This document shows, piece by piece, positions 15,419 through 32,063 of a stretch of DNA of 64,000 nucleotides. Position 1 is the stretch's first letter. Every line of letters starts with the position of its first letter. This DNA is from Methylomonas subterranea (lineage in GTDB: Bacteria > Pseudomonadota > Gammaproteobacteria > Methylococcales > Methylomonadaceae). The stretch lies in NCBI RefSeq assembly GCF_024505185.1, contig NZ_JANIBJ010000012.1, forward strand, positions 1-64,000, read 5' to 3'. Under the pieces are notes generated by a model. The model was not told where the DNA came from, ran no database searches, and saw only the letters and a program-made list of their open reading frames with translations. Made by a program: the position numbers and the translations under genes.

Positions 15419-15757
15419 TCATCCGGACGATTCTTCTACCCGCCCGCGGCCGAAGGCTATCAATTCCTGCCTTATCGCCTCCCGAATCGCGGCCTTGTCC
15501 AAGGCGTCCAGGCCGTAGCGTTGGGCCAGTTTGCGATAGTCGTCCTCGTTTAGCGATACCGTTAGCCGGGGACGTTTCGGCGTCTTGACGTCCAATTGCA
15601 CTAGTTTGCGAATTTGATCGGAGGTGCTCAGGCCGTTTTTGTTGGCTTCGCGCCTGATGGCTTCCGATACGCCGGTGCCGAACTCGAAGGCCACCTGAAT
15701 GGCCCGTATGCTGCGCTCGGAGATTTTCCAGTTTTCCGGCAGGTCTTTTTTGCTCAT
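15419..15757 (-). CDS. Small protein downstream of the AAA ATPase, unknown
   Basis: 112 residues, highly charged. Residues 15-50 (RSIRAIQVAFEFGTGVSEAIRREA) and 60-105 look helical; the middle RPRLTVSLNEDDYRKLAQRYG resembles a ribbon-helix-helix-like strand and helix, so DNA binding is possible. It is on the same strand as the ATPase/flotillin/PspA cluster and follows it after a 240-bp gap filled by a repeat element. Whether it belongs to the cluster is open. Confidence 0.6.
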   Translation of the reverse strand: MSKKDLPENWKISERSIRAIQVAFEFGTGVSEAIRREANKNGLSTSDQIRKLVQLDVKTPKRPRLTVSLNEDDYRKLAQRYGLDALDKAAIREAIRQELIAFGRGRVEESSG

Positions 15758-15770
15758 ATCGTTATGTTAA

Positions 15771-15944
15771 TCTGAAAGTAAAAAATCGGGCGGGTACGGT
15801 TGCTTGTTGGACAGGCGTCGGCGGCAAGGATGCTGCCGTCGAGCCTACACGGACGAATTTACGGCGTCCTGTCCGGCGAGGAACCGTGCCCAACTGCACT
15901 ACTTTCATTTGCCGGGGCGATCGCCCGGCCTTCATGATCGTTAC
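15771..15944. repeat. Dispersed 174-bp repeat, copy 1
   Basis: Shares about 90 per cent identity with 31892-32063 over its whole length. Borders are TCTGAAAGT and TCATGATCGTTAC. Inside are GGACAGG ... CCTGTCC, a region with GGCAAGGATGCTGCC and the 12-bp palindrome GGGCGATCGCCC, so it can fold into several stems. It has no open frame of note and no terminal inverted repeats with each other. Probably a small non-autonomous or REP-like element. Confidence 0.8.
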
Positions 15945-15996
15945 GCTATCCTACAAAGATCTTTCCATCCGCGAAATAAATCTGCGCGCTCTCGAT

Positions 15997-18900
15997 TCAA
16001 GTCGGCTTCCCGATCTTGCCGCCCGGTTTCAACTTGGCGAACTCCTCGGCCAGCCATTTCACGCGCTCCCAGGTATCCTGTTCCATGCTGATCTTATGCT
16101 GCATGGCCGAAAACACCGGCAGGAAAGACAGTTCGTACAAGTCCGCCAGCTTGCGCAGCACTTCGTCCACGCCCGGCACCGGTTGGTTGACGACTTGTAC
16201 GTGGGTTTCGGATTCGGCGATCTGGCCGCGCAAGCGGGCAATTTGCTCGTTCAGCGCCAACAGCGGCGAAGGGCTTTGCAACTGGCGGGCAACCAGAGCC
16301 AGTTGTTCGCCTATTTGCGACAGCTGGTTCGCCAGCAGGCGTGCCGGGTCGTTATCGTCGCCGAGTTTGCGCAAGCGGCTGTATTCATCCTTGATGGCCC
16401 GCCAGCGCGCCGTTTCCTCGGCCGTCAACACCCCGCGTATTTCCTTGAGTTTTAGCAGATTTTCCTCGGTGCCGCGGGTCAGGGTTTGGGCTTCGCCGGC
16501 GTAGTGGTCGCCTATCAGGTTTTGCAATTCCTCGTCGTTCATCACCGCCGTGACTTTTTCGGCCATCTTGTTCATGTTGCGGTAACTGCCCTGCAACTTG
16601 AAAGGCGGCTCGCTGCGGTAGCGGTCGTCCTGGGCCGCCGAATAGATGTATTGCCGATTGACCGCCAATACCACGTCGCGAATCTTCAACATTTTTTCCA
16701 GCGTCGCGGCAATTTCCCGGCTCTCGGCGGCGGCGTAGCGATGTTCGAATTCGTTGTCGGATACGCTTTCGCCCTGTGCCCGGCGGATGAAGCGGTAGAC
16801 GTCGGCCATGCCGCGCATGGCCAAACCTTGCAAAACCGGGTTGGAGGTCAGGGCATTTTCGATGAAGCTCAGCGCGAACACGGCTTCGTTGCCGCTCAAT
16901 ACGTCGCCCAGATTGTAGATATCGGCGCGATTGGCCAACATATCGGGAATCTTGAAAACCTCGCCGGATTCGGTATAGGGGTTGCCGGCCATCACCACGC
17001 AGAATTTCTTGCCGCGCATGTCGTAGCTCTTGGTCTTGCCCCGCCAGACGCCTTCAATGCGCCTGGAGCCGTCGCACAGCGATATGAATTTTTGCAGAAA
17101 TTCGGCATGGGTGTGCTGGATGTCGTCCAGATACAGCATGACGTTGTTGCCCATTTCCAGAGCCAGATTGAGTTTTTCCAACTCCTTGGCGGCCGTGGCG
17201 TTGGCCGCCTGACCGGGATCCAGGGAGTGCACGCCATGGCCCAGCGCCGGACAGTCGATTTTCATGAACACCAGCCCCAGGCGGTTGCCGATATATTCCA
17301 TCAGCGTGGTTTTGCCGTAGCCGGGCGGTGAAATCAACAACAATAAACCCATCAAATCGGTGCGTTTGGCGCTGCCGGCCGCGCCCATCTGTTTGGCCAG
17401 ATTGTCGCCGACCAGCGGCAGATAAACCTCGTCTATCAAGCGGTTGCGGACGAATGAGGTCAAGGGTTTGGCCCGATAGCGCTCCAGACGCAGCAGCTCG
17501 CGCTCCGCGGCTATCAAATCCTGCCGCAAGGCCTGAAATTGCTGAAAGCCGGGCACGACACAGCGGCGATGTCGTTGCAGGCGCTGGCCGAATTCGTCCA
17601 GACCGAATACCAAGCGCCTGTCCTGGATGCGGGGATGTTCGCCCATCAGGTTCTCGACCACGATATCCAGGCCGGCCGGACTGATTTTGCGTTGAAAATC
17701 GCCGCCCAGGATCAACATGACCGCTTCCGGCACGAAACGCCGGTACGCCGCATATGGGTTTTGTTCGCTTATGCCGCTGAGCCAGCTGTAGCACAGTTGC
17801 CACTGGCCTTCCACCGCGCCACGGGTTTGTTGCAGGGCCAGCTCGAAATCGGCCCGGTGGCCTATGGTATCCAGATGCTGATACAAGGCCTTGACCAGCG
17901 TCTCGGCGGCCTGGCTGGCGACGAATTCCGCCACGGTGGCGGCCAATTCCGCCAACAGATAGTCGGCGGCCACGGTGGGATCGGCGGCCGTCAGGCCGGC
18001 CAGATTGTTGAATTCGGCGATTTTCGGCGCAAGTTGGTCTATCAAGTCGTGATGCGCCTTGCGGCTACCCAGGGTTTTTTGCAACAGGGCCGCGCTTTGC
18101 GCCAGTTTTTGCAGGGTTTGCGTTTGCGGGCCGGCGCCGAAACGCCAAAAAACCAAGGCCAGCGCGCGGGTATCGGGGGTATAACGCAGCGGCCCGGCGC
18201 TTCGATGGGCCGGCAATAGGCGCTCCAGTATCTTGCAGGCATCGGCGTCGTGTATGCCTTTGTCGTAACCTTCCTGATAGCGGGGGCCGGCGTACCGGCG
18301 CACGATTCCAGTCAGTTCGTCCTGTTGCAGTAGCGCCGCATGCAAACCATCCAGACTCAACTCTTCCAGCCCTTGCTCGGCGGCATGCAACAGCGAGGCC
18401 GCCAAATATTCGCCCCGGTAGACCTCGGCGGTTTCGGAAACCAGCGCCTGACTCCAATAATCCTTGAGCGCCACGAGTTGCGGATAGTCGGCCGGCGCAT
18501 AGTAATCGGTACCGACCAGATGCCAGACCAGCTGTTCCTGGCGCTTGATCAAGGTCAGGTCCAGAGGCTGGGTGTTGACGCTGAATTTATGCTTACCCAG
18601 CTTGATCAGCGTGCCGCCTTCCTCGAAGATGTCCTGCCGGTCGCGCAAGGCGCGCATGGCCTGATCCTGCATGGCCTTCAAGCGAGACTGAGCCTCGTCG
18701 GCCTGTACCGAGGCTTCCAATGCCTGTAACTGAGCAATCAACTGCCTCAGTTTCAGCACCATGGGGTCGGCGGCCAGGAAGCTGTTCAGCGCATCGGCCT
18801 GATCGAAACTTTGCAGCCTGCGCTCTATACTGCCGAACAGGCGGTCGGCCGCCGCGACGATGTTTTGCACGCGGCGCTGGATTTCATCCAGCAACACCTG

Positions 18901-21183
18901 CTTGCGCGATTGAAAGGCCTCGAACAATTGCTCGCGTTGCTGGACGATGTCGGCCAGAAACTCATCGAAATCGGCGAAGCGGCTTTCCAGATCTTCCAGT
19001 TGCGTCAACAAGCGGGCCAGTTGATCGTCGCATTGTTGCGGACTTTCCACCGATTCCAGCGCGCTGCCTATGCTTTGCGCAAACAGTTTGAATTGGGCGG
19101 CGAATTCGGCGACCGCCTCTCCGGAACGAAAGCTTTTGCGCTTGTGGCGGGCTTCGGCTTTCAGTTGATTCAGGTTGGCGTAGATTTCGGACAGGGCTTC
19201 CAGTATGCCGGTGCGAACTTGCGGGTCTTCGACTTCGAGACCGGCCAGCGTGCCGTTCAGCAAATCCAGGTTTTGCCCCATCTTTTCCAGTTCGTCGAGC
19301 AAGGGCTGGATGTCGGCGCTGCTTTGGCATTTTTCCAGGCGGGTTTGTTGCTCGGCCAGACTGGCGTGGAATGGCTGCAAGGCGGCCGCGCTGCTCAAAA
19401 AAACCACGGTAGCCCGGCCCAGGCTTTCCAGCTCCGCAGCCAGTTTGTCCTGCAGAGCTTGCACCCTGGCTTGATCGATATGGCGTAATTCCTTGATCGT
19501 CGCCAGCCGTCCTTGTTGCTGGTGCATCGCACCCAGGGCTTGGACGAATTCCTGCGGCGTCTTCCAGCTGTCTACATAAAGATTTTGCAGCAGGTTGAGT
19601 TGGCGGCTCTCGGCTTCGGCCAAGGCCTGGTTGGCTTGCTGGCGTATGCTTTCGACCTTTTCGAACTCGTCCAGCACCAATTCGGCGGTGGCGACGATCT
19701 GGCGAATATCGCCGCCGATGGCACCGACTTCGTCGGCTTCCAGCCAGTGGTAAGCATCGAACAGGCGTTGGCCGGCCGCTATCATGGCTTCGTAATGCGC
19801 GACATTCGGGCGTTTTTCCTGTATCGCTCGAATCAGACTGTAGCCGTCGGAAATGCCTCTGACCAGTTCGGCATTGCCTATCTTGCCGAAGAACGACTGG
19901 CGGGCGGATTGTTGCCGCAGATATTCTTCGTGAAAATACGGGGTTTCCCAAATCTGCATGGCATGGATGCGGCCGGCTTCCTTGTTGTCGTCGCGGAACA
20001 CCAGTAAACGGCCGTCGTTGAACAGGCAAACACCATGGGCGACGATGGGATTTTGCAGGCTCTTGCCGATTAAATTGTAGGAAAACAACACGCTGACGCC
20101 GGCTTCCGCTCCGTAAAAGCGGTACAGCACGTCTTCGCCGTTCGGCGAGCGGCGCGCGCCGGCGAAACTCAGGCCGGACGGCAGGTTTTCGAAGACTTTG
20201 GTTTCGCCGTTTTGTAAATAATATCCGCCCGGAAAGATCAAGCCATGGTCTTCCGGCAGTTGCACGCAGGAAAAGCCGATGGCATCGATGCGTTCGACCG
20301 ATTGGGTCAGGGTATTGAACACCAGAAAGCGGTAATCGTTCTCCCGGTACGGGCGGATTTTCAACAAGATCACCGTGCCCAATTTGGCGTAGGCAATGTC
20401 GGCATCGGCCAGGGATTGATGTTGATCCTCGACCGGCTCCCGGTAAATGCCCAAACCGTCTTCGGTGTTGTTCTCGACCTTGACGGTCAAATCGCCGCCG
20501 ACGGTCTCGACGAAGACCTGATCCAGTATGCTGACATGCGGATGTTTGCCGGCCACATGGTCTTCCCGGCGGGTCGGCGTCCATTCGAAATCGTGGGCCG
20601 GATGGCGCGGCAGGTCGCGCTCGCCGCGGTTGTCGATATAGCTGATCTTGTCGTCGTCGATTTGCCAGCGAAATACCCGGATGTCTTCCAGTTTCAGGCC
20701 GATCTGAAATACCGCCAACAGCCTTTCGGCGCTGACGTGCAGCGACAATAAGCGGGTATTTTTATAGTATCTGTAAAGTTCCTGGAAGTCGGCGACGAAG
20801 CTTGCCTCGTGCAAAAAGCCGTGTTGCGGATTTTGCGGCTCGACGTCCAGACCGTCTTCGGTTTCGACCAGCTTATATAAACTGAATACGTCCTCGACCT
20901 GGGTTTCCTGCTTCAGCCCCAAAAACACGTTGTAGCCGAACAGCATTAAATGCTGGCCGACCCGGACCATGTCGCGCGGCACGCAGTTGTTTTCGGTGCG
21001 CACCCTGACCCTGCCTATGATCTTCAGCTCGGTTTGACCGAACTCCGCGGCGCGCGAGGCGTTCAGACCATCTATCTTGGCCTGCAAGGCCTGGCCCTGT
21101 TGCTCCAGGCGCTTGCGTATGACCTCGAAGGCCTCGCCTTCGGAGACGGCTTGTTCGGTGTCTGTCAAAGCTTCTTCAGTCAT
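15997..21183 (-). CDS. Giant coiled-coil AAA ATPase (annotated elsewhere as DNA repair ATPase)
   Basis: 1728 residues. The N-terminal half has no recognised catalytic motif and is followed by long coiled-coil stretches (about residues 500-900, rich in Gln, Glu, Leu and Ala). A single AAA module lies near 1280-1480: Walker A PPGYGKTTLMEY, Walker B VMLYLDDIQ, then CVVMAGNPYTESGEVFKIPDM resembling the sensor-1 region of MoxR-type ATPases, and NRADIYNLGD. A second coiled coil follows. It is downstream of the flotillin gene on the same strand after a 313-bp repeat-filled gap. I infer a membrane- or scaffold-linked remodelling motor; the repair label rests only on automated naming. No signal peptide. 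Confidence 0.85.
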   Translation of the reverse strand: MTEEALTDTEQAVSEGEAFEVIRKRLEQQGQALQAKIDGLNASRAAEFGQTELKIIGRVRVRTENNCVPRDMVRVGQHLMLFGYNVFLGLKQETQVEDVFSLYKLVETEDGLDVEPQNPQHGFLHEASFVADFQELYRYYKNTRLLSLHVSAERLLAVFQIGLKLEDIRVFRWQIDDDKISYIDNRGERDLPRHPAHDFEWTPTRREDHVAGKHPHVSILDQVFVETVGGDLTVKVENNTEDGLGIYREPVEDQHQSLADADIAYAKLGTVILLKIRPYRENDYRFLVFNTLTQSVERIDAIGFSCVQLPEDHGLIFPGGYYLQNGETKVFENLPSGLSFAGARRSPNGEDVLYRFYGAEAGVSVLFSYNLIGKSLQNPIVAHGVCLFNDGRLLVFRDDNKEAGRIHAMQIWETPYFHEEYLRQQSARQSFFGKIGNAELVRGISDGYSLIRAIQEKRPNVAHYEAMIAAGQRLFDAYHWLEADEVGAIGGDIRQIVATAELVLDEFEKVESIRQQANQALAEAESRQLNLLQNLYVDSWKTPQEFVQALGAMHQQQGRLATIKELRHIDQARVQALQDKLAAELESLGRATVVFLSSAAALQPFHASLAEQQTRLEKCQSSADIQPLLDELEKMGQNLDLLNGTLAGLEVEDPQVRTGILEALSEIYANLNQLKAEARHKRKSFRSGEAVAEFAAQFKLFAQSIGSALESVESPQQCDDQLARLLTQLEDLESRFADFDEFLADIVQQREQLFEAFQSRKQVLLDEIQRRVQNIVAAADRLFGSIERRLQSFDQADALNSFLAADPMVLKLRQLIAQLQALEASVQADEAQSRLKAMQDQAMRALRDRQDIFEEGGTLIKLGKHKFSVNTQPLDLTLIKRQEQLVWHLVGTDYYAPADYPQLVALKDYWSQALVSETAEVYRGEYLAASLLHAAEQGLEELSLDGLHAALLQQDELTGIVRRYAGPRYQEGYDKGIHDADACKILERLLPAHRSAGPLRYTPDTRALALVFWRFGAGPQTQTLQKLAQSAALLQKTLGSRKAHHDLIDQLAPKIAEFNNLAGLTAADPTVAADYLLAELAATVAEFVASQAAETLVKALYQHLDTIGHRADFELALQQTRGAVEGQWQLCYSWLSGISEQNPYAAYRRFVPEAVMLILGGDFQRKISPAGLDIVVENLMGEHPRIQDRRLVFGLDEFGQRLQRHRRCVVPGFQQFQALRQDLIAAERELLRLERYRAKPLTSFVRNRLIDEVYLPLVGDNLAKQMGAAGSAKRTDLMGLLLLISPPGYGKTTLMEYIGNRLGLVFMKIDCPALGHGVHSLDPGQAANATAAKELEKLNLALEMGNNVMLYLDDIQHTHAEFLQKFISLCDGSRRIEGVWRGKTKSYDMRGKKFCVVMAGNPYTESGEVFKIPDMLANRADIYNLGDVLSGNEAVFALSFIENALTSNPVLQGLAMRGMADVYRFIRRAQGESVSDNEFEHRYAAAESREIAATLEKMLKIRDVVLAVNRQYIYSAAQDDRYRSEPPFKLQGSYRNMNKMAEKVTAVMNDEELQNLIGDHYAGEAQTLTRGTEENLLKLKEIRGVLTAEETARWRAIKDEYSRLRKLGDDNDPARLLANQLSQIGEQLALVARQLQSPSPLLALNEQIARLRGQIAESETHVQVVNQPVPGVDEVLRKLADLYELSFLPVFSAMQHKISMEQDTWERVKWLAEEFAKLKPGGKIGKPT

Positions 21184-21220
21184 CGGCTTATGGGCGGGTT
21201 AATCCTGAGGAAATCGTTTT

Positions 21221-21344
21221 GTCCACGAAAGGCACGAAAATCACGAAAATTTTCGAATAGTTGCCGACACCGAATCATCATCCAAACGGCGCTGGCAGAA
21301 CCAACAAGCCGATTTATTTCGTGTCTTTCGTGCTTTTCGTGGAC
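21221..21344. repeat. Inverted repeat element in the flotillin-ATPase gap
   Basis: Arms 21221-21248 and 21317-21344 match at 25 of 28 positions as an inverted repeat. Both are built from repeated CACGAAA units (TTTCGTG on the other arm). The 68-bp interior has no gene. Elements with this CACGAAA phrase occur in many gammaproteobacteria and betaproteobacteria. Confidence 0.7.
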
Positions 21345-21356
21345 AGACTGCAATTT

Positions 21357-21480
21357 ACTCTGAAAGTCATGGTAGGAGCGATGCATAGTCGCGATTCGAA
21401 AGCCATCATCACGACTATGCGTCGCTCCTACCAGACGGCCTTTCATTTGCGGGGGCGATGCCCAACATTCATGATCGTTA
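21357..21480. repeat. Variant of the dispersed repeat with its own hairpin
   Basis: The left end (CTCTGAAAGT at 21358) and right end (TTTCATTTGC ... CATGATCGTTA to 21480) match the borders of the 174-bp repeat, but the interior is different: a 22-bp hairpin arm starting GGTAGGAGCGATGC (21371-21392) pairs with 21411-21432 with two mismatches. It lies in the gap between the flotillin and ATPase genes. Confidence 0.6.
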
Positions 21481-21496
21481 GGTTTTTGAACGACCA

Positions 21497-23539
21497 TCAA
21501 CGGCTCAGTTGCTCCAACAAAGCCCTGATCTTGGCCTTGTCTTCGCTGCTGCCTTGCTGCATCAGTTTGTTCAAAAAGGCCGAGACGGACAGGTTTTGCA
21601 AGTCGTCGCTGCCGAGATTGGCGGCGATTTGCTTGACGTCGTCCAACAAATTGGCCTTGCCGCTCAAATGGTCTTCGAAGGTAGCTTTGAGCAAATCGCT
21701 TTTATAAACCGCGCCGTCTATCGCCTTGCCGACCGACAAGGCTTTCATATAGCGGTCGAAAAATTCGCCGTCGCCGCCGACGATGTCGATGTTGGCCTGC
21801 TTGACCGCCTCGCCGAACACGCCGGCATTCAGCGTGGCCGCTTCGCGGGCGGCTTCTATGCCGGCCATGGTTTCGCTGTGGGCGGTATCGACGCGCAAGC
21901 GGAATTCTTCGTGGCTGCGGGTTTTTTCGTCCATGCTGGCCATCGCGGCGAATTTGCTTTTCAAGCCGTCGGCCTCGGCTTGGTAATGCTGACGCACGGC
22001 TTCCGCTTCGGCCTGGCCCCGGCGCTCTATCGCTTCGGCCTCGGCAATCTTGACTTTGACGGCCACCATGGCTTGCTTTTCTTCCGAATCGGCATCGGCG
22101 TTTTTGATCCGCACCTGCGCCATGCCGACCGCCTCGTCGCCTTGGGCCTGAGCCGCCATGCGCTCGCGCAGCACTTTGGCTTCGGCCAGGCCTTGCGCGG
22201 CTTGTTCGGCCTGTATGCCTTCGGCCAGACGGATTTTGGCTTGCGCCTGTTTTTCCGCCGCTTCGAATTCGGCGCCGGCCAGCACCAGGGTTTCCTTTGC
22301 CTTGAATTGGGCGCTTTGTTCAGCCGCCTCGGCGGCCTTGATGTCTTTAACCAGGCTTTCCTGCGCTTCGGCTTCGGCGGCAATCACGATCGCTTGGCGC
22401 TTGCGGTCGGCCTCCGAGACTTCGCGTAATTCCTTGATTCGCTCTTCCTCTTCGGCCACATGTTTTTCGACGGCGATACGCGCGCGTATCACTTCGGCGA
22501 TTTCCTTTTTTTGTTCCTCCAGGGCCTTTTCCTTGGCGATGCGTTGCAATTCGACTTCTTTTTCCCGGTCTATGATTTCCAGTTGGCGCACGCGCTCGAC
22601 TTTCTCGGTTTCGATCGCAATGGCCCGTTCCCGGTTTTTTTCGGCGACTTCGATTTCGCGTTGCTTGTTCTCGTTGTCTATGCCTATGGTTTGTTCGGCC
22701 ACGATACGGGCGCGTTGCTCCTTGGTATGTTCCTCGGCGACGACTTTTTCGGTCTCGGCTTTCTCGCGGGCTTGCACGGTGGCGATTTCGCGTTTTTGTT
22801 TGGACTCGGCGTCGGCTTGTTGGCGTTCCAGCTCCAGCAGCTTTTCCTGGGTTTCGACGTCTTTTTTCTTGATCTGCATTTGCTCGTCGCGTTGCAGCTC
22901 GTTGGTGCGGACGTGTTGTATCGCCGTCAATTCGGTGATCTTGCGTATGCCCTGGGCATCGAGGATGTTATTGGCATCCAACTGATTCATCGGGGTTTGT
23001 TCCAGATAATCGATCGCGGCGTCTTCCAACACGTAACCGTTCAGATCCTGACCTATGACCTGAATGATTTGATCGCGGAAATGGTTGCGTTCACGGTACA
23101 AATCCTCGAAGTCCATGCGCTTGCCGACCGTTTTCAGGGCTTCGGAAAATTTGGCGTTGAACAGTTCTTCTATGGTCTTCTGATCGGAAGCGCGCTCGCA
23201 GCCTATGGCCTGGGCGACTTTCAGCACGTCTTCACGGGTCTTGTTGACCCTGACGAAGAAGGTCACGACGATGTCGGCACGGATATTGTCCTTACATATC
23301 AGACCTTCGCCGCCACGGCGGTTGATTTCCACCGTTTTCAGCGAAATGGCCATTTTTTCGACCCGGTGCAGCACCGGAATGACCAGGCTGCCGGTAAAGG
23401 TGACCTTGGGCTCGCTGCTCAAGGTATTGACTATCATCGCCTGCCCCTGATCGACCTTGCGGTACATCGAGGCGAAGACGATCAGCGCGCCGATCAGGAT
23501 GACCGAAGCGACTGCGGTAATGGTTATGATGATTTCCAT
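21497..23539 (-). CDS. yqiK: YqiK-type flotillin (SPFH/band 7 protein)
   Basis: 680 residues. One N-terminal membrane helix (about 5-28) is followed by an SPFH domain (VDQGQAMIVNT to about residue 200; KTVEINRRGGEGLICKDN is typical) and a very long Glu/Ala/Lys-rich coiled coil (about 210-560) with the flotillin-type EAEA repeats. The C-terminus is a short helical region ending in LEQLSR. Flotillins form membrane microdomain scaffolds. It starts 12 bp after the YqiJ-like gene, the same pairing as E. coli yqiJ-yqiK, and the PspA and AAA genes complete the cluster. Confidence 0.9.
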   Translation of the reverse strand: MEIIITITAVASVILIGALIVFASMYRKVDQGQAMIVNTLSSEPKVTFTGSLVIPVLHRVEKMAISLKTVEINRRGGEGLICKDNIRADIVVTFFVRVNKTREDVLKVAQAIGCERASDQKTIEELFNAKFSEALKTVGKRMDFEDLYRERNHFRDQIIQVIGQDLNGYVLEDAAIDYLEQTPMNQLDANNILDAQGIRKITELTAIQHVRTNELQRDEQMQIKKKDVETQEKLLELERQQADAESKQKREIATVQAREKAETEKVVAEEHTKEQRARIVAEQTIGIDNENKQREIEVAEKNRERAIAIETEKVERVRQLEIIDREKEVELQRIAKEKALEEQKKEIAEVIRARIAVEKHVAEEEERIKELREVSEADRKRQAIVIAAEAEAQESLVKDIKAAEAAEQSAQFKAKETLVLAGAEFEAAEKQAQAKIRLAEGIQAEQAAQGLAEAKVLRERMAAQAQGDEAVGMAQVRIKNADADSEEKQAMVAVKVKIAEAEAIERRGQAEAEAVRQHYQAEADGLKSKFAAMASMDEKTRSHEEFRLRVDTAHSETMAGIEAAREAATLNAGVFGEAVKQANIDIVGGDGEFFDRYMKALSVGKAIDGAVYKSDLLKATFEDHLSGKANLLDDVKQIAANLGSDDLQNLSVSAFLNKLMQQGSSEDKAKIRALLEQLSR

Positions 23540-23551
23540 GGCTGCTCCAGC

Positions 23552-24151
23552 TCAGTCGAGTTTGCTGATGAAATAAAGGTTCTTATCCGCGTCGTAATCG
23601 TAGATCAAGGCACTGTCTCCTTGCGTGAAGTCGTTAGGCGTCGTCGCCCGCACCGAGATGATCAGCCCGGCCCCACCGTCTTCGACCTTGGCCTGACCGA
23701 AATTTTCGTCCACGCTCATCGAGGTGATTTGGCAGGATTTAGCCAACAGCGAGCGGTTACTGCGCGCTTCGTGGGTCACGAACAATTTGCTCAAGGGACG
23801 GGTAATCTTGCCGGTCAGATATACCGCCAGGACCAAGCTTAATATCAACACCGCCACGCCCGCCAGATGGTGGAGCATGCCTGCCGGCAATAGCGACAAC
23901 AACCAGGCATCGCTACACAGGCTCAGGCTCCAGGCAAACAAGAACAGCAGGCTGAACGACAGCGTGATGGGCACGCCGGCCAGACCGAAGGTAGCCATCA
24001 GTCCCGCCAAACCGGTTTCGCTGTCGATGTCCACCTCTATGACATCGAAGACGCCCAGCAAACTGAACAACCAGAACACCAGGCAAATTCCCAGCGGTAT
24101 CGTGTAAACGACGGTTGGGAAACTGCCTATCAGCGTAAACACCGTTTCCAT
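23552..24151 (-). CDS. yqiJ: YqiJ/NfeD-like membrane protein with C-terminal OB fold
   Basis: 199 residues. Hydrophobic helices lie at about 10-35, 48-75 and 88-112, followed by a soluble C-terminal beta-rich part (SLLAKSCQITSMSVDENFGQAKVEDGGAG to NDFTQGDSALIYDYD) that fits the OB fold of NfeD and YqiJ proteins. These act next to flotillins in the membrane and probably anchor or assemble them. It lies 34 bp after the PspA gene and 12 bp before the flotillin gene. Confidence 0.85.
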   Translation of the reverse strand: METVFTLIGSFPTVVYTIPLGICLVFWLFSLLGVFDVIEVDIDSETGLAGLMATFGLAGVPITLSFSLLFLFAWSLSLCSDAWLLSLLPAGMLHHLAGVAVLILSLVLAVYLTGKITRPLSKLFVTHEARSNRSLLAKSCQITSMSVDENFGQAKVEDGGAGLIISVRATTPNDFTQGDSALIYDYDADKNLYFISKLD

Positions 24152-24185
24152 AGTATCCTCCGGGCGCCGATTTCGGATGCGATGA

Positions 24186-24887
24186 CTAAACGCCCTCTTG
24201 AGGCTGTTGAGCCTTCAAGCGTTCCAGAACACTCGCCGCAGTGGCTTTCTTGGTGACGATGCCGGCCTCCTGCAATTTGTTATGCAGTTTTTCGCCGTTT
24301 TCCTCCTGCTGCAAATCCAGCGCCGCCTGCATTTGGTCGGCCTTTTTTTGCTGTTTGGCCTTGATCCGCTCCAGGGATTCGGTTGCGCTGCGCAGCGCGG
24401 AGCGACTGCCGGAAAAACGGCTGGCCACGGCTTCGTTGGCTCTATTGACGCTTTCGGTGGTCTTGACCAAGGCCAGCTCCCGCTCCATGCCCTGGATATT
24501 GCGCTCCGTCACCGCGATGGACTGTTTCAAGATGCCGACGTTGGCGTTCAAACCCTCCAGTATCGCGGTCTGGGTATCCAGCTCGTTGCTGAGTTTGGCG
24601 ACTTTTTCCGCCACCTCCAGCGCCAGATTTTCGTCGTTTTTAGCCAAGGCCCGCACCGCGTAATGCTCGTGTTCCTCGACGGATGTGCGCAGGCCGCCGA
24701 CTCTGCGCTGTACAGCCATTTGTTCGGCTATCACTTCCGTCAGGCTTTCCTTGGCCTGTTCCAGATGCGCCTTGGCATCCCTGACCTCCTGCTCCAGGAT
24801 GCGTATGCCTTGGGCATCGACTATGCTTTCGCCGGCTTCGTTAGCCACGCCGCGTAACGCGGTCATTAATTTATTCAGTAAGTTCAT
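24186..24887 (-). CDS. pspA: PspA/IM30 (YjfJ-type) protein
   Basis: 233 residues, nearly all helical and highly charged. The start MNLLNKLMTALRG is an amphipathic helix that can bind membranes, and ILEQEVRDAKAHLEQAKESL begins the long PspA hairpin. PspA proteins form ESCRT-III-like rods that stabilise or remodel the inner membrane. It is preceded by YjfI 25 bp upstream, which is the yjfI-yjfJ arrangement of E. coli. No PspF or PspBC is present, so control differs from the classical phage-shock operon. Confidence 0.9.
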   Translation of the reverse strand: MNLLNKLMTALRGVANEAGESIVDAQGIRILEQEVRDAKAHLEQAKESLTEVIAEQMAVQRRVGGLRTSVEEHEHYAVRALAKNDENLALEVAEKVAKLSNELDTQTAILEGLNANVGILKQSIAVTERNIQGMERELALVKTTESVNRANEAVASRFSGSRSALRSATESLERIKAKQQKKADQMQAALDLQQEENGEKLHNKLQEAGIVTKKATAASVLERLKAQQPQEGV

Positions 24888-24912
24888 GATGCCTGCCTCC
24901 TTTAGTGAGACG

Positions 24913-25335
24913 TCATTGCAGATAGTCGGCCATCAATTCGATGGCTTCCAGGGTGTTGTCACTCAGCGTCGCAATCTCATGCCGGATGGCGTCGATATCG
25001 GAGCGGGTGCTCAGCGCGCCGAAAATGATGTATTGCTGACCTATCTTGGAAAAAGAGGACAAGGGCATGGGAATATTCAGGGTCAACAAGGCTTCCAGCA
25101 GGGCTTCGCGCCGCTCGGGGATGATTTCCTGTTCACGCCAAAGGTAGGATACGCAAAGGATTTGACTGTCGTCTATGGTCACATAAACCGGAAATTCCTC
25201 CCTGTCCTGAATCAGAACCTGCAGCACCTGCAATTCAACCTCGATGATCTCGGGCGACAACATAGCACCGTTATCCAGCGTAGTGCGGCCCAGGCTCTCC
25301 GCCAATTGGCTTACCGTCAATTTGCCGTTCATCAA
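24913..25335 (-). CDS. yjfI: YjfI family protein (DUF2170)
   Basis: 140 residues, soluble and acidic. The LNIPMPLSSFSKIGQQYIIFGALS and DSQILCVSYLWREQEI segments match the DUF2170 pattern. Its role is unknown; it is usually next to a PspA-like gene, as here, and may be a partner that controls PspA assembly. It is the first gene of the cluster, 41 bp from an inverted-repeat operator and in line with a good promoter. Start MMNGK; the second Met (25332) is an alternative. Confidence 0.88.
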   Translation of the reverse strand: MMNGKLTVSQLAESLGRTTLDNGAMLSPEIIEVELQVLQVLIQDREEFPVYVTIDDSQILCVSYLWREQEIIPERREALLEALLTLNIPMPLSSFSKIGQQYIIFGALSTRSDIDAIRHEIATLSDNTLEAIELMADYLQ

Positions 25336-25362
25336 GTTAACTCCCGTCGTGAGTGCGCGTCC

Positions 25363-25405
25363 AATTTAGTCCGAACCCCATAACATGTCAAGACATATTA
25401 TGGGG
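25363..25405 (-). promoter_or_regulatory. Promoter and inverted-repeat operator of the yjfI-pspA-flotillin cluster
   Basis: On the minus strand TTGACA (25391-25386) is followed after 17 bp by TAAATT (25368-25363), a good sigma70-type pair 28 bp upstream of the yjfI start. The -35 box lies inside a 30-bp inverted repeat: CCCCATAACATGTC (25376-25389) and its mirror (25392-25405) with one mismatch. A repressor bound there would block RNA polymerase. No sigma54 (-24/-12) element as in classical pspA was seen. Confidence 0.6.
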
Positions 25406-31882: not shown

Positions 31883-31891
31883 ACCATTTAC

Positions 31892-32063
31892 TCTGAAAGT
31901 AAAAAATCGAGCGGGTGGTTGCTTGTTGGACAGGCGTCGGCAGCAAGGATGCTGCCGTCGAGCCTACACGGACGTATTTACGGCGTCCTGTCCGGCGAGG
32001 AACCGTGCCCAGCTGCACTACTTTCATTTGCCGGGGCGATCGCCCGGCCTTCATGAACGTTAC
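31892..32063. repeat. Dispersed 172-bp repeat, copy 2
   Basis: Same orientation and about 90 per cent identical to 15771-15944. Differences include loss of two bases near GCGGGTGGTT and CGGCAGC-AAGGAT-GCTGCCG forming a perfect 7-bp stem here. Right border CATGAACGTTAC. Confidence 0.8.

Follow-up and report, generated by a model that had tools for sequence, protein, structure and literature searches.

The window analysed here, 64,000 nucleotides of Methylomonas subterranea (positions 1 to 64,000 of contig NZ_JANIBJ010000012.1), carries on its minus strand, between 15419 and 25405, a block of six open reading frames (ORFs) that unites YjfI, PspA, YqiJ, a flotillin, a giant AAA ATPase and a small predicted ribbon-helix-helix (RHH) protein, preceded by a predicted promoter and palindromic operator (Table 1). 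A preliminary description of this DNA, made from the sequence alone, had reported genes on one strand, a 1728-residue ATPase, a promoter match and a palindrome, and all of these lie where it put them; its five genes are present, and a sixth, the small gene at the end of the block, falls inside its interval uncounted in its text. The source genome (4.41 Mb in 104 contigs) holds no PspA/IM30 match besides the one in the block, and the flotillin is one of its 11 Band_7 matches. The closest relative with the operon is Methylomonas sp. STC_4, whose ATPase is 94% identical. Intergenic gaps among the first four genes measure 12-34 bases. The spacers of 313 bases before the ATPase gene and 239 bases before the sixth gene hold repeat sequence, so a single six-gene transcript stays putative.

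Table 1. Features of the block and its upstream region (window coordinates)
Feature	Position	Strand	Basis and remarks
Predicted palindromic operator, CCCCATAATATGTC-TT-GACATGTTATGGGG (minus-strand reading)	25376..25405		14+2+14, 93% complementary
Sigma-70-type promoter TTGACA-17-TAAATT, -35 box within operator	25363..25391	-	Consensus match only
YjfI/DUF2170 (CesT/Tir-chaperone-like), short form, ~140 aa	24913..25332	-	ATG start; TTG at 25335; Pfam DUF2170 E 4.5e-33
PspA/IM30 family, YjfJ-like	24186..24887	-	Pfam PspA_IM30 E 3.4e-36
YqiJ/NfeD2-like membrane protein	23552..24151	-	Homology to conserved gene in same position; Pfam scan without match
Flotillin-like SPFH/Band_7 protein, YqiK-like, 680 aa	21497..23539	-	Pfam Band_7 E 1.2e-7
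Giant ATPase, 1728 aa	15997..21183	-	ORF and Pfam domains
DUF3686 domain of ATPase	19747..21087	-	Pfam E 6.8e-193; residues 33-479
AAA module of ATPase, ~residues 1229-1585	16429..17499	-	Pfam AAA E 9.5e-6; predicted MoxR-like fold
Small predicted tandem RHH protein, 112 aa, proposed operon regulator	15419..15757	-	Homology and fold model

Conservation of the block was followed through its ATPase. The closest 80 of at least 568 ATPase relatives were kept, ranked by closeness to the window, a ranking that may tilt the sample toward PspA, and among 398 evenly drawn Pseudomonadota genomes DUF3686 was present in 8, the window's own genome counted. Together with the window and 7 loci from the even draw, the relatives make 88 loci, of which 77 remain after 11 with less than 5.5 kb upstream are dropped. 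Flotillin and YqiJ accompany the ATPase in 76 of the 77, PspA and YjfI in 54 each, and the RHH gene in 10; one locus (L039) has no flotillin, YqiJ, PspA, YjfI or RHH within 10 kb upstream of the ATPase.

The predicted operator of the window is a pair of diverged GACATNNTATGTC-type sites separated by TT. Of the 10 RHH-class loci with sequence, 8 have an exact GACATNNTATGTC upstream of yjfI; in the other two, the window and Methylobacter, it has diverged, and both show the two-site form CCCCATAATATGTC-TT-GACATNNTATGGGG; locus L022 holds the full two-site version, GACATATTATGTC-TT-GACATGTTATGTC. Shuffled controls gave no exact GACATNNTATGTC in 200. TTGACA sits at the operator site in 9 of 11 scanned loci (L056 is cut short, L093 is without it), and since the site overlaps the ORF caller's first start codon in L081, L093 and L102, the true starts there may lie further in. 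The preliminary description had set a promoter with its own operator before the first gene, and the predicted promoter does overlap the palindrome, although the consensus match by itself proves nothing, as the region holds 3 sites of this type where chance alone predicts 5.2. The 4.41-Mb genome has a single occurrence of a 24-base composite of the palindrome, and the next-best match elsewhere differs at 3 positions. That genome contains no exact site, so the circuit there seems to be confined to this operon.

The sixth protein is the candidate ligand of this operator. It is modelled, with moderate confidence, as a tandem RHH-like fold, and its Pfam RHH_1 match is borderline (E 7.6e-4, under the family cut-off); TraY of the F-plasmid relaxosome, AvtR and single-chain Arc are likened to that model at 13-15% identity. 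The RHH gene adjoins a short YjfI in all 18 assessable loci. It was also sought in 21 genomes of the 22 loci without YjfI (L079, which has PspA, was omitted) and is present in 7 of them, always in a separate YjfI-PspA-(~200-225 aa)-RHH locus with a short YjfI; the exact site stands upstream of yjfI in all seven. Some of these separate loci adjoin a membrane protein that, by eye, resembles the spermidine-synthase-like one of the second operon group of Ravi et al. Genome-wide, GACATAWTATGTC occurs 36 times in the seven RHH genomes (G404 10, G405 9, G007 7, G412 4, and 2 each in G408, G413 and G195). The 14 RHH-less genomes with a related ATPase have no copy of it; they contain 7 sites with other middle letters (in G399, G401, G411 and G050). 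The one-sided chance of 7/7 against 0/14 is 1 in 116,280, for genomes that are related to one another. Ten other RHH genomes add 12 sites, spread over 7 of the 10, with none for a reversed control pattern. From this co-occurrence, we infer binding of the operator by the RHH protein.

Operons with YjfI and no RHH gene follow a different pattern. Among 44 such loci, 43 encode a long YjfI, mostly of 203-223 aa, with a conserved extra N-terminus (SAHYQRxxRxRLREQGLVKKEVWxxPE-like) that short YjfI lacks. Anchored on this N-terminus, two ACATGT boxes 14-26 bases apart precede 35 of the 43 genes, and 3 more with one mismatch; 2150 shuffles gave 0 exact pairs and 13 with one mismatch. In two Pseudomonas loci (L082, the remaining one of the 44, and L118) where the YjfI ORF is without the conserved N-terminus, both upstream boxes read ACGCGT rather than ACATGT. 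The long-YjfI class comes close to forming a single clade on the tree of ATPases (5 changes; a quick method without bootstrap), so a single regulator switch is probable, not many independent ones. The extra N-terminus matches the MazE-like family PF11455 weakly (E no higher than 1 for 7 of 7 members, the lowest being 0.0079), and a fused RHH domain is therefore not claimed. Homology between the RHH protein and this N-terminus was also considered and rejected (hhalign probability 0.1%). The solved BacA chain 8q8o (146 aa) matches long YjfI at E 6.7e-56, yet without the N-terminus, whereas the BacA model of NCBIfam is 206 positions long and the two closest relatives found in Pseudomonas are 206-aa ORFs that include it; no identical BacA was present in 199 Pseudomonas genomes drawn (best 77%). 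The solved chain may thus be missing a conserved part that is possibly its DNA-binding half.

The block is best read, with a probability of roughly 0.58, as a self-regulated membrane-stress operon, in which the RHH protein on the palindrome over the -35 box would repress transcription, with YjfI as a switch that would respond to the state of PspA. Gene content, conserved partners, operator conservation, RHH-operator co-occurrence and the MoxR-like and moderate-confidence tandem-RHH-like folds carry this reading. A PspA-YjfI module would have been added to a YqiJ-flotillin-ATPase core. In a resting cell with a sound membrane, the tandem-RHH protein would occupy the operator and keep the operon repressed; under stress, PspA would be engaged at the membrane, and YjfI, a chaperone-fold protein either freed or bound depending on PspA, would lift repression, so that PspA, flotillin-YqiJ and the ATPase rise jointly. 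Conjectural in this scheme are DNA binding, repression as the direction of control, switching by YjfI and what the ATPase acts on. One observation weighs against a general role in trans: the YqiJ-flotillin-ATPase trio operon itself bears the site in only 1 of the 7 genomes with a separate RHH locus (G007, L020).

Alternatively, another regulator, YjfI itself or a global factor, might bind the palindrome, with the RHH gene a passenger linked by descent. Co-occurrence is not equal to binding, and because RHH-less YjfI operons have a different operator, YjfI could bind DNA throughout. We nevertheless consider this unlikely, given that GACATAWTATGTC tracks the RHH gene among the ATPase genomes, that short YjfI is devoid of the extra N-terminal part, and that the sixth protein, at moderate confidence, models as a tandem RHH.

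The preliminary description had proposed, as a model, one membrane machine in which the ATPase could recycle PspA rods, with flotillin as scaffold. This would make the ATPase Vps4-like, and Ravi et al. (2024) have made a similar, general suggestion of an ESCRT-III-like machine. PspA is ESCRT-III-like (PMC11237479), it shares the operon in 54 of the 77 loci, and some PspA is encoded elsewhere in all 18 no-YjfI genomes searched (of 22), which makes it uninformative to ask whether trio-only genomes lack PspA. The neighbourhoods nonetheless tie the ATPase to other proteins. The trio stands alone, without PspA-YjfI, in 21 of the 77 loci; the 8 evenly drawn genomes have flotillin and YqiJ in 8, YjfI in 4 and PspA in 3, one of the 8 loci lying on a short contig; and 7 opened records of 12 from a plasmid collection, Deinococcus and actinomycetes among them, show flotillin and YqiJ in 7 and PspA in 1. 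YjfI-PspA operons without a local ATPase also occur. On the ATPase tree, the absence of YjfI (22 rows, one with PspA) changes 12 times, at least 9 of them on well-supported branches. Distances between ATPases correlate with those between flotillins at 0.94 and between PspA proteins at 0.60 (0.69 without odd-length PspA ORFs), and the partial ATPase-PspA correlation is 0.01 with flotillin held constant (54 loci, odd-length PspA ORFs kept in); shared descent of the loci makes these values descriptive only. Flotillin-YqiJ is thus the constant partner of the ATPase and PspA a less constant one, at odds with the steady pairing expected of an ESCRT-III-like protein with its ATPase.

The architecture of the ATPase bears on the same question. 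The coiled coils and AAA module of the preliminary description are present, but its picture of coiled coils flanking one AAA module leaves out the N-terminal third, which is DUF3686, and a mainly helical folded part that precedes the AAA module in the predicted structure; the Pfam scan also names DUF7902 (E 9.2e-24). The N-terminal part of this ATPase type has been described as a beta-propeller, with coiled coil (PMC11237479). The AAA module contains Walker A PPGYGKTT at 1286-1293, Walker B MLYLDDIQ at 1349-1356 and a sensor-1-like Asn at 1401, and its predicted fold is of the MoxR type: the MoxR-type proteins NorQ and CbbQ rank first in structure comparison, at 15-16% identity. Vps4 is not named among the 50 matches listed, which excludes nothing, and the matches listed from a PDB sequence search cover just the surroundings of Walker A. 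Unlike NorQ and CbbQ, the block ATPase combines DUF3686, coiled coils and the AAA module in a single chain of 1728 aa and is encoded in a flotillin operon. With PspA inconstant and NorQ/CbbQ ranked first, the Vps4-like recycler is weakened and in our judgement improbable; the observation in the preliminary description is confirmed and its interpretation partly supported, and attention for the giant ATPase shifts from PspA to flotillin and YqiJ.

Several observations concern the ATPase gene in other settings. In L020 (G007, contig C42), one TGA near the start breaks the frame into 89-aa and 1583-aa pieces. A rhomboid-protease-like gene (by eye) lies 3' of the ATPase in many loci, such as L086; this rhomboid-like cluster comprises 24 loci, for the most part around +5 to +5.5 kb counted from the start of the ATPase. 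In PADLOC the ATPase resembles LmuB weakly (E 7.8e-7) and PspA resembles LmuB/JetC more weakly still; both results are read as coiled-coil similarity and not as defence.

That the palindrome acts as an RNA hairpin or attenuator instead of a DNA operator is very hard to credit: in the window it does form an almost perfect inverted repeat of 30 bases, but the predicted -35 box lies inside it, which would put it upstream of the transcript, relatives conserve a short AT-rich 13-base palindrome and no stem, the same site recurs elsewhere in divergent intergenic regions and ahead of unrelated genes, and Rfam has zero matches in the window.

Those other genes suggest a wider circuit. Genes beside 29 of the 36 sites were looked at, the other 7 belonging to G405, which has 9 sites and is closely related to G404; where a site lies between divergent genes, its target is ambiguous. 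Sigma-32 genes adjoin sites in two genomes, one above the NCBIfam RpoH equivalog cut-off (L172) and one above the sigma-32 subfamily cut-off and below the RpoH one (L175). Further sites accompany htpX, above its NCBIfam cut-off (L167), an SPFH gene like HflK/HflC, under both cut-offs (L163), a second pspA by family match (L174), an NfeD-like gene recognised by eye and without an NCBIfam match (L169), an M16-peptidase-like gene with a divergently oriented transporter gene beside it (L165), genes recognised by eye as lipoprotein-like (L173, L176), and, in L020, the YqiJ-flotillin-ATPase trio facing a Zn-ribbon-like gene. The remaining sites adjoin hydrolase-like and small proteins with no evident theme, and those opened in the 10 other RHH genomes (L177, L180-L188) adjoin yjfI genes or genes without evident theme. 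Judged by sequence, the predicted site recurs over distant bacteria and in some appears to precede heat-shock and membrane-quality-control genes as well.

A broader proposal, held tentatively and at somewhat less than even odds, is that a tandem-RHH repressor with YjfI as PspA sensor would constitute a further kind of Psp control, switching PspA together with flotillin-YqiJ-ATPase and, in some genomes, sigma-32, htpX and SPFH genes as a membrane-proteostasis regulon; the BacA lineage would have swapped the DNA-binding half for a YjfI-fused domain and a new operator. A defined operator, a candidate repressor and the sigma-32 and htpX sites make an operon known through guilt by association testable. 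The classical Psp response (PspF-pspABC) is likewise a PspA-centred envelope-stress operon. It depends on sigma-54 activation, whereas the block has a sigma-70-type promoter with overlapping operator, and the six genes of the block include no PspF, PspB or PspC.

Much of the gene content has precedent. YjfI (CesT/Tir fold), PspA, band-7/flotillin, YqiJ and an AAA ATPase have been described in one operon, as have shorter flotillin-YqiJ(-ATPase) operons, with ESCRT-like remodelling proposed (Ravi et al., 2024; PMC11237479). The window fits the flotillin-type operon definition of Ravi et al., with its YjfI-PspA dyad, band-7/flotillin, YqiJ and AAA ATPase in one direction, and shares with that class the five core genes and the same general ESCRT-like proposal (PMC11237479). 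It departs from that proposal in that MoxR proteins rank first for the AAA module and PspA is a less constant partner. In the available text of Ravi et al., the RHH gene appears solely at the end of some spermine-synthase-group operons, whereas here it is found in the flotillin type too, with a shared operator. The gene combination and the broad idea are thus already in print, and the control by operator and RHH gene looks new. No report of an operator or RHH regulator of a flotillin-type operon, and no functional test of the flotillin-YqiJ-ATPase trio, was found in the literature searched, with supplements and most subscription journals outside it. A text search with the 13-mer gave one match, in plant phylogeography (PMC3571962), and none with its reverse complement. 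Separately, plasmid pQBR103 (L189) encodes in a row PspA, a rhomboid protease, DUF2491, DUF350, DUF1190, glutathionylspermidine synthase, a YqiJ-like protein, SPFH and a giant ATPase, a hybrid in which two published PspA operon classes are joined.

The bacABCDEF operon of Pseudomonas aeruginosa appears to be a relative of the block. BacA is a DUF2170 protein and BacB has a PspA_IM30 domain; PA14_16160 is termed a short NfeD, PA14_16180 is classed with the SPFH proteins, and reverse-transcription PCR spans the six genes (PMC2587700, PMC10948618, PMC13086221). The ATPase is likely bacE, and the bac YjfI is probably of the long kind, unlike the short one in the window. A bacA mutant showed 6.1- to 13.5-fold higher levels of the remaining Bac proteins (PMC10948618), as would be expected if YjfI belonged to a repressor. 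Pseudomonas composti, among the species that have that SPFH gene (PMC13086221), shows the order YjfI-PspA-YqiJ-flotillin-ATPase (L035).

The intergenic spacers of the block differ among relatives. L024 and Methylobacter L025 carry a gene for a 179-aa Zn-ribbon protein (PF13453) between flotillin and ATPase; a search of the window's genome, run without a positive control, gave no match to it. The flotillin-ATPase spacer of the window (21184-21496) is made up of repeat fragments that include long inverted repeats. A dispersed repeat of ~180 bases (15766-15947) separates the ATPase gene from the RHH gene; 32 further near-complete copies are listed at 92-96% identity, and a copy is also present at 31888-32063. 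In place of this repeat-bearing ATPase-RHH spacer, the sister strain L024 has a spacer of 63 bases.

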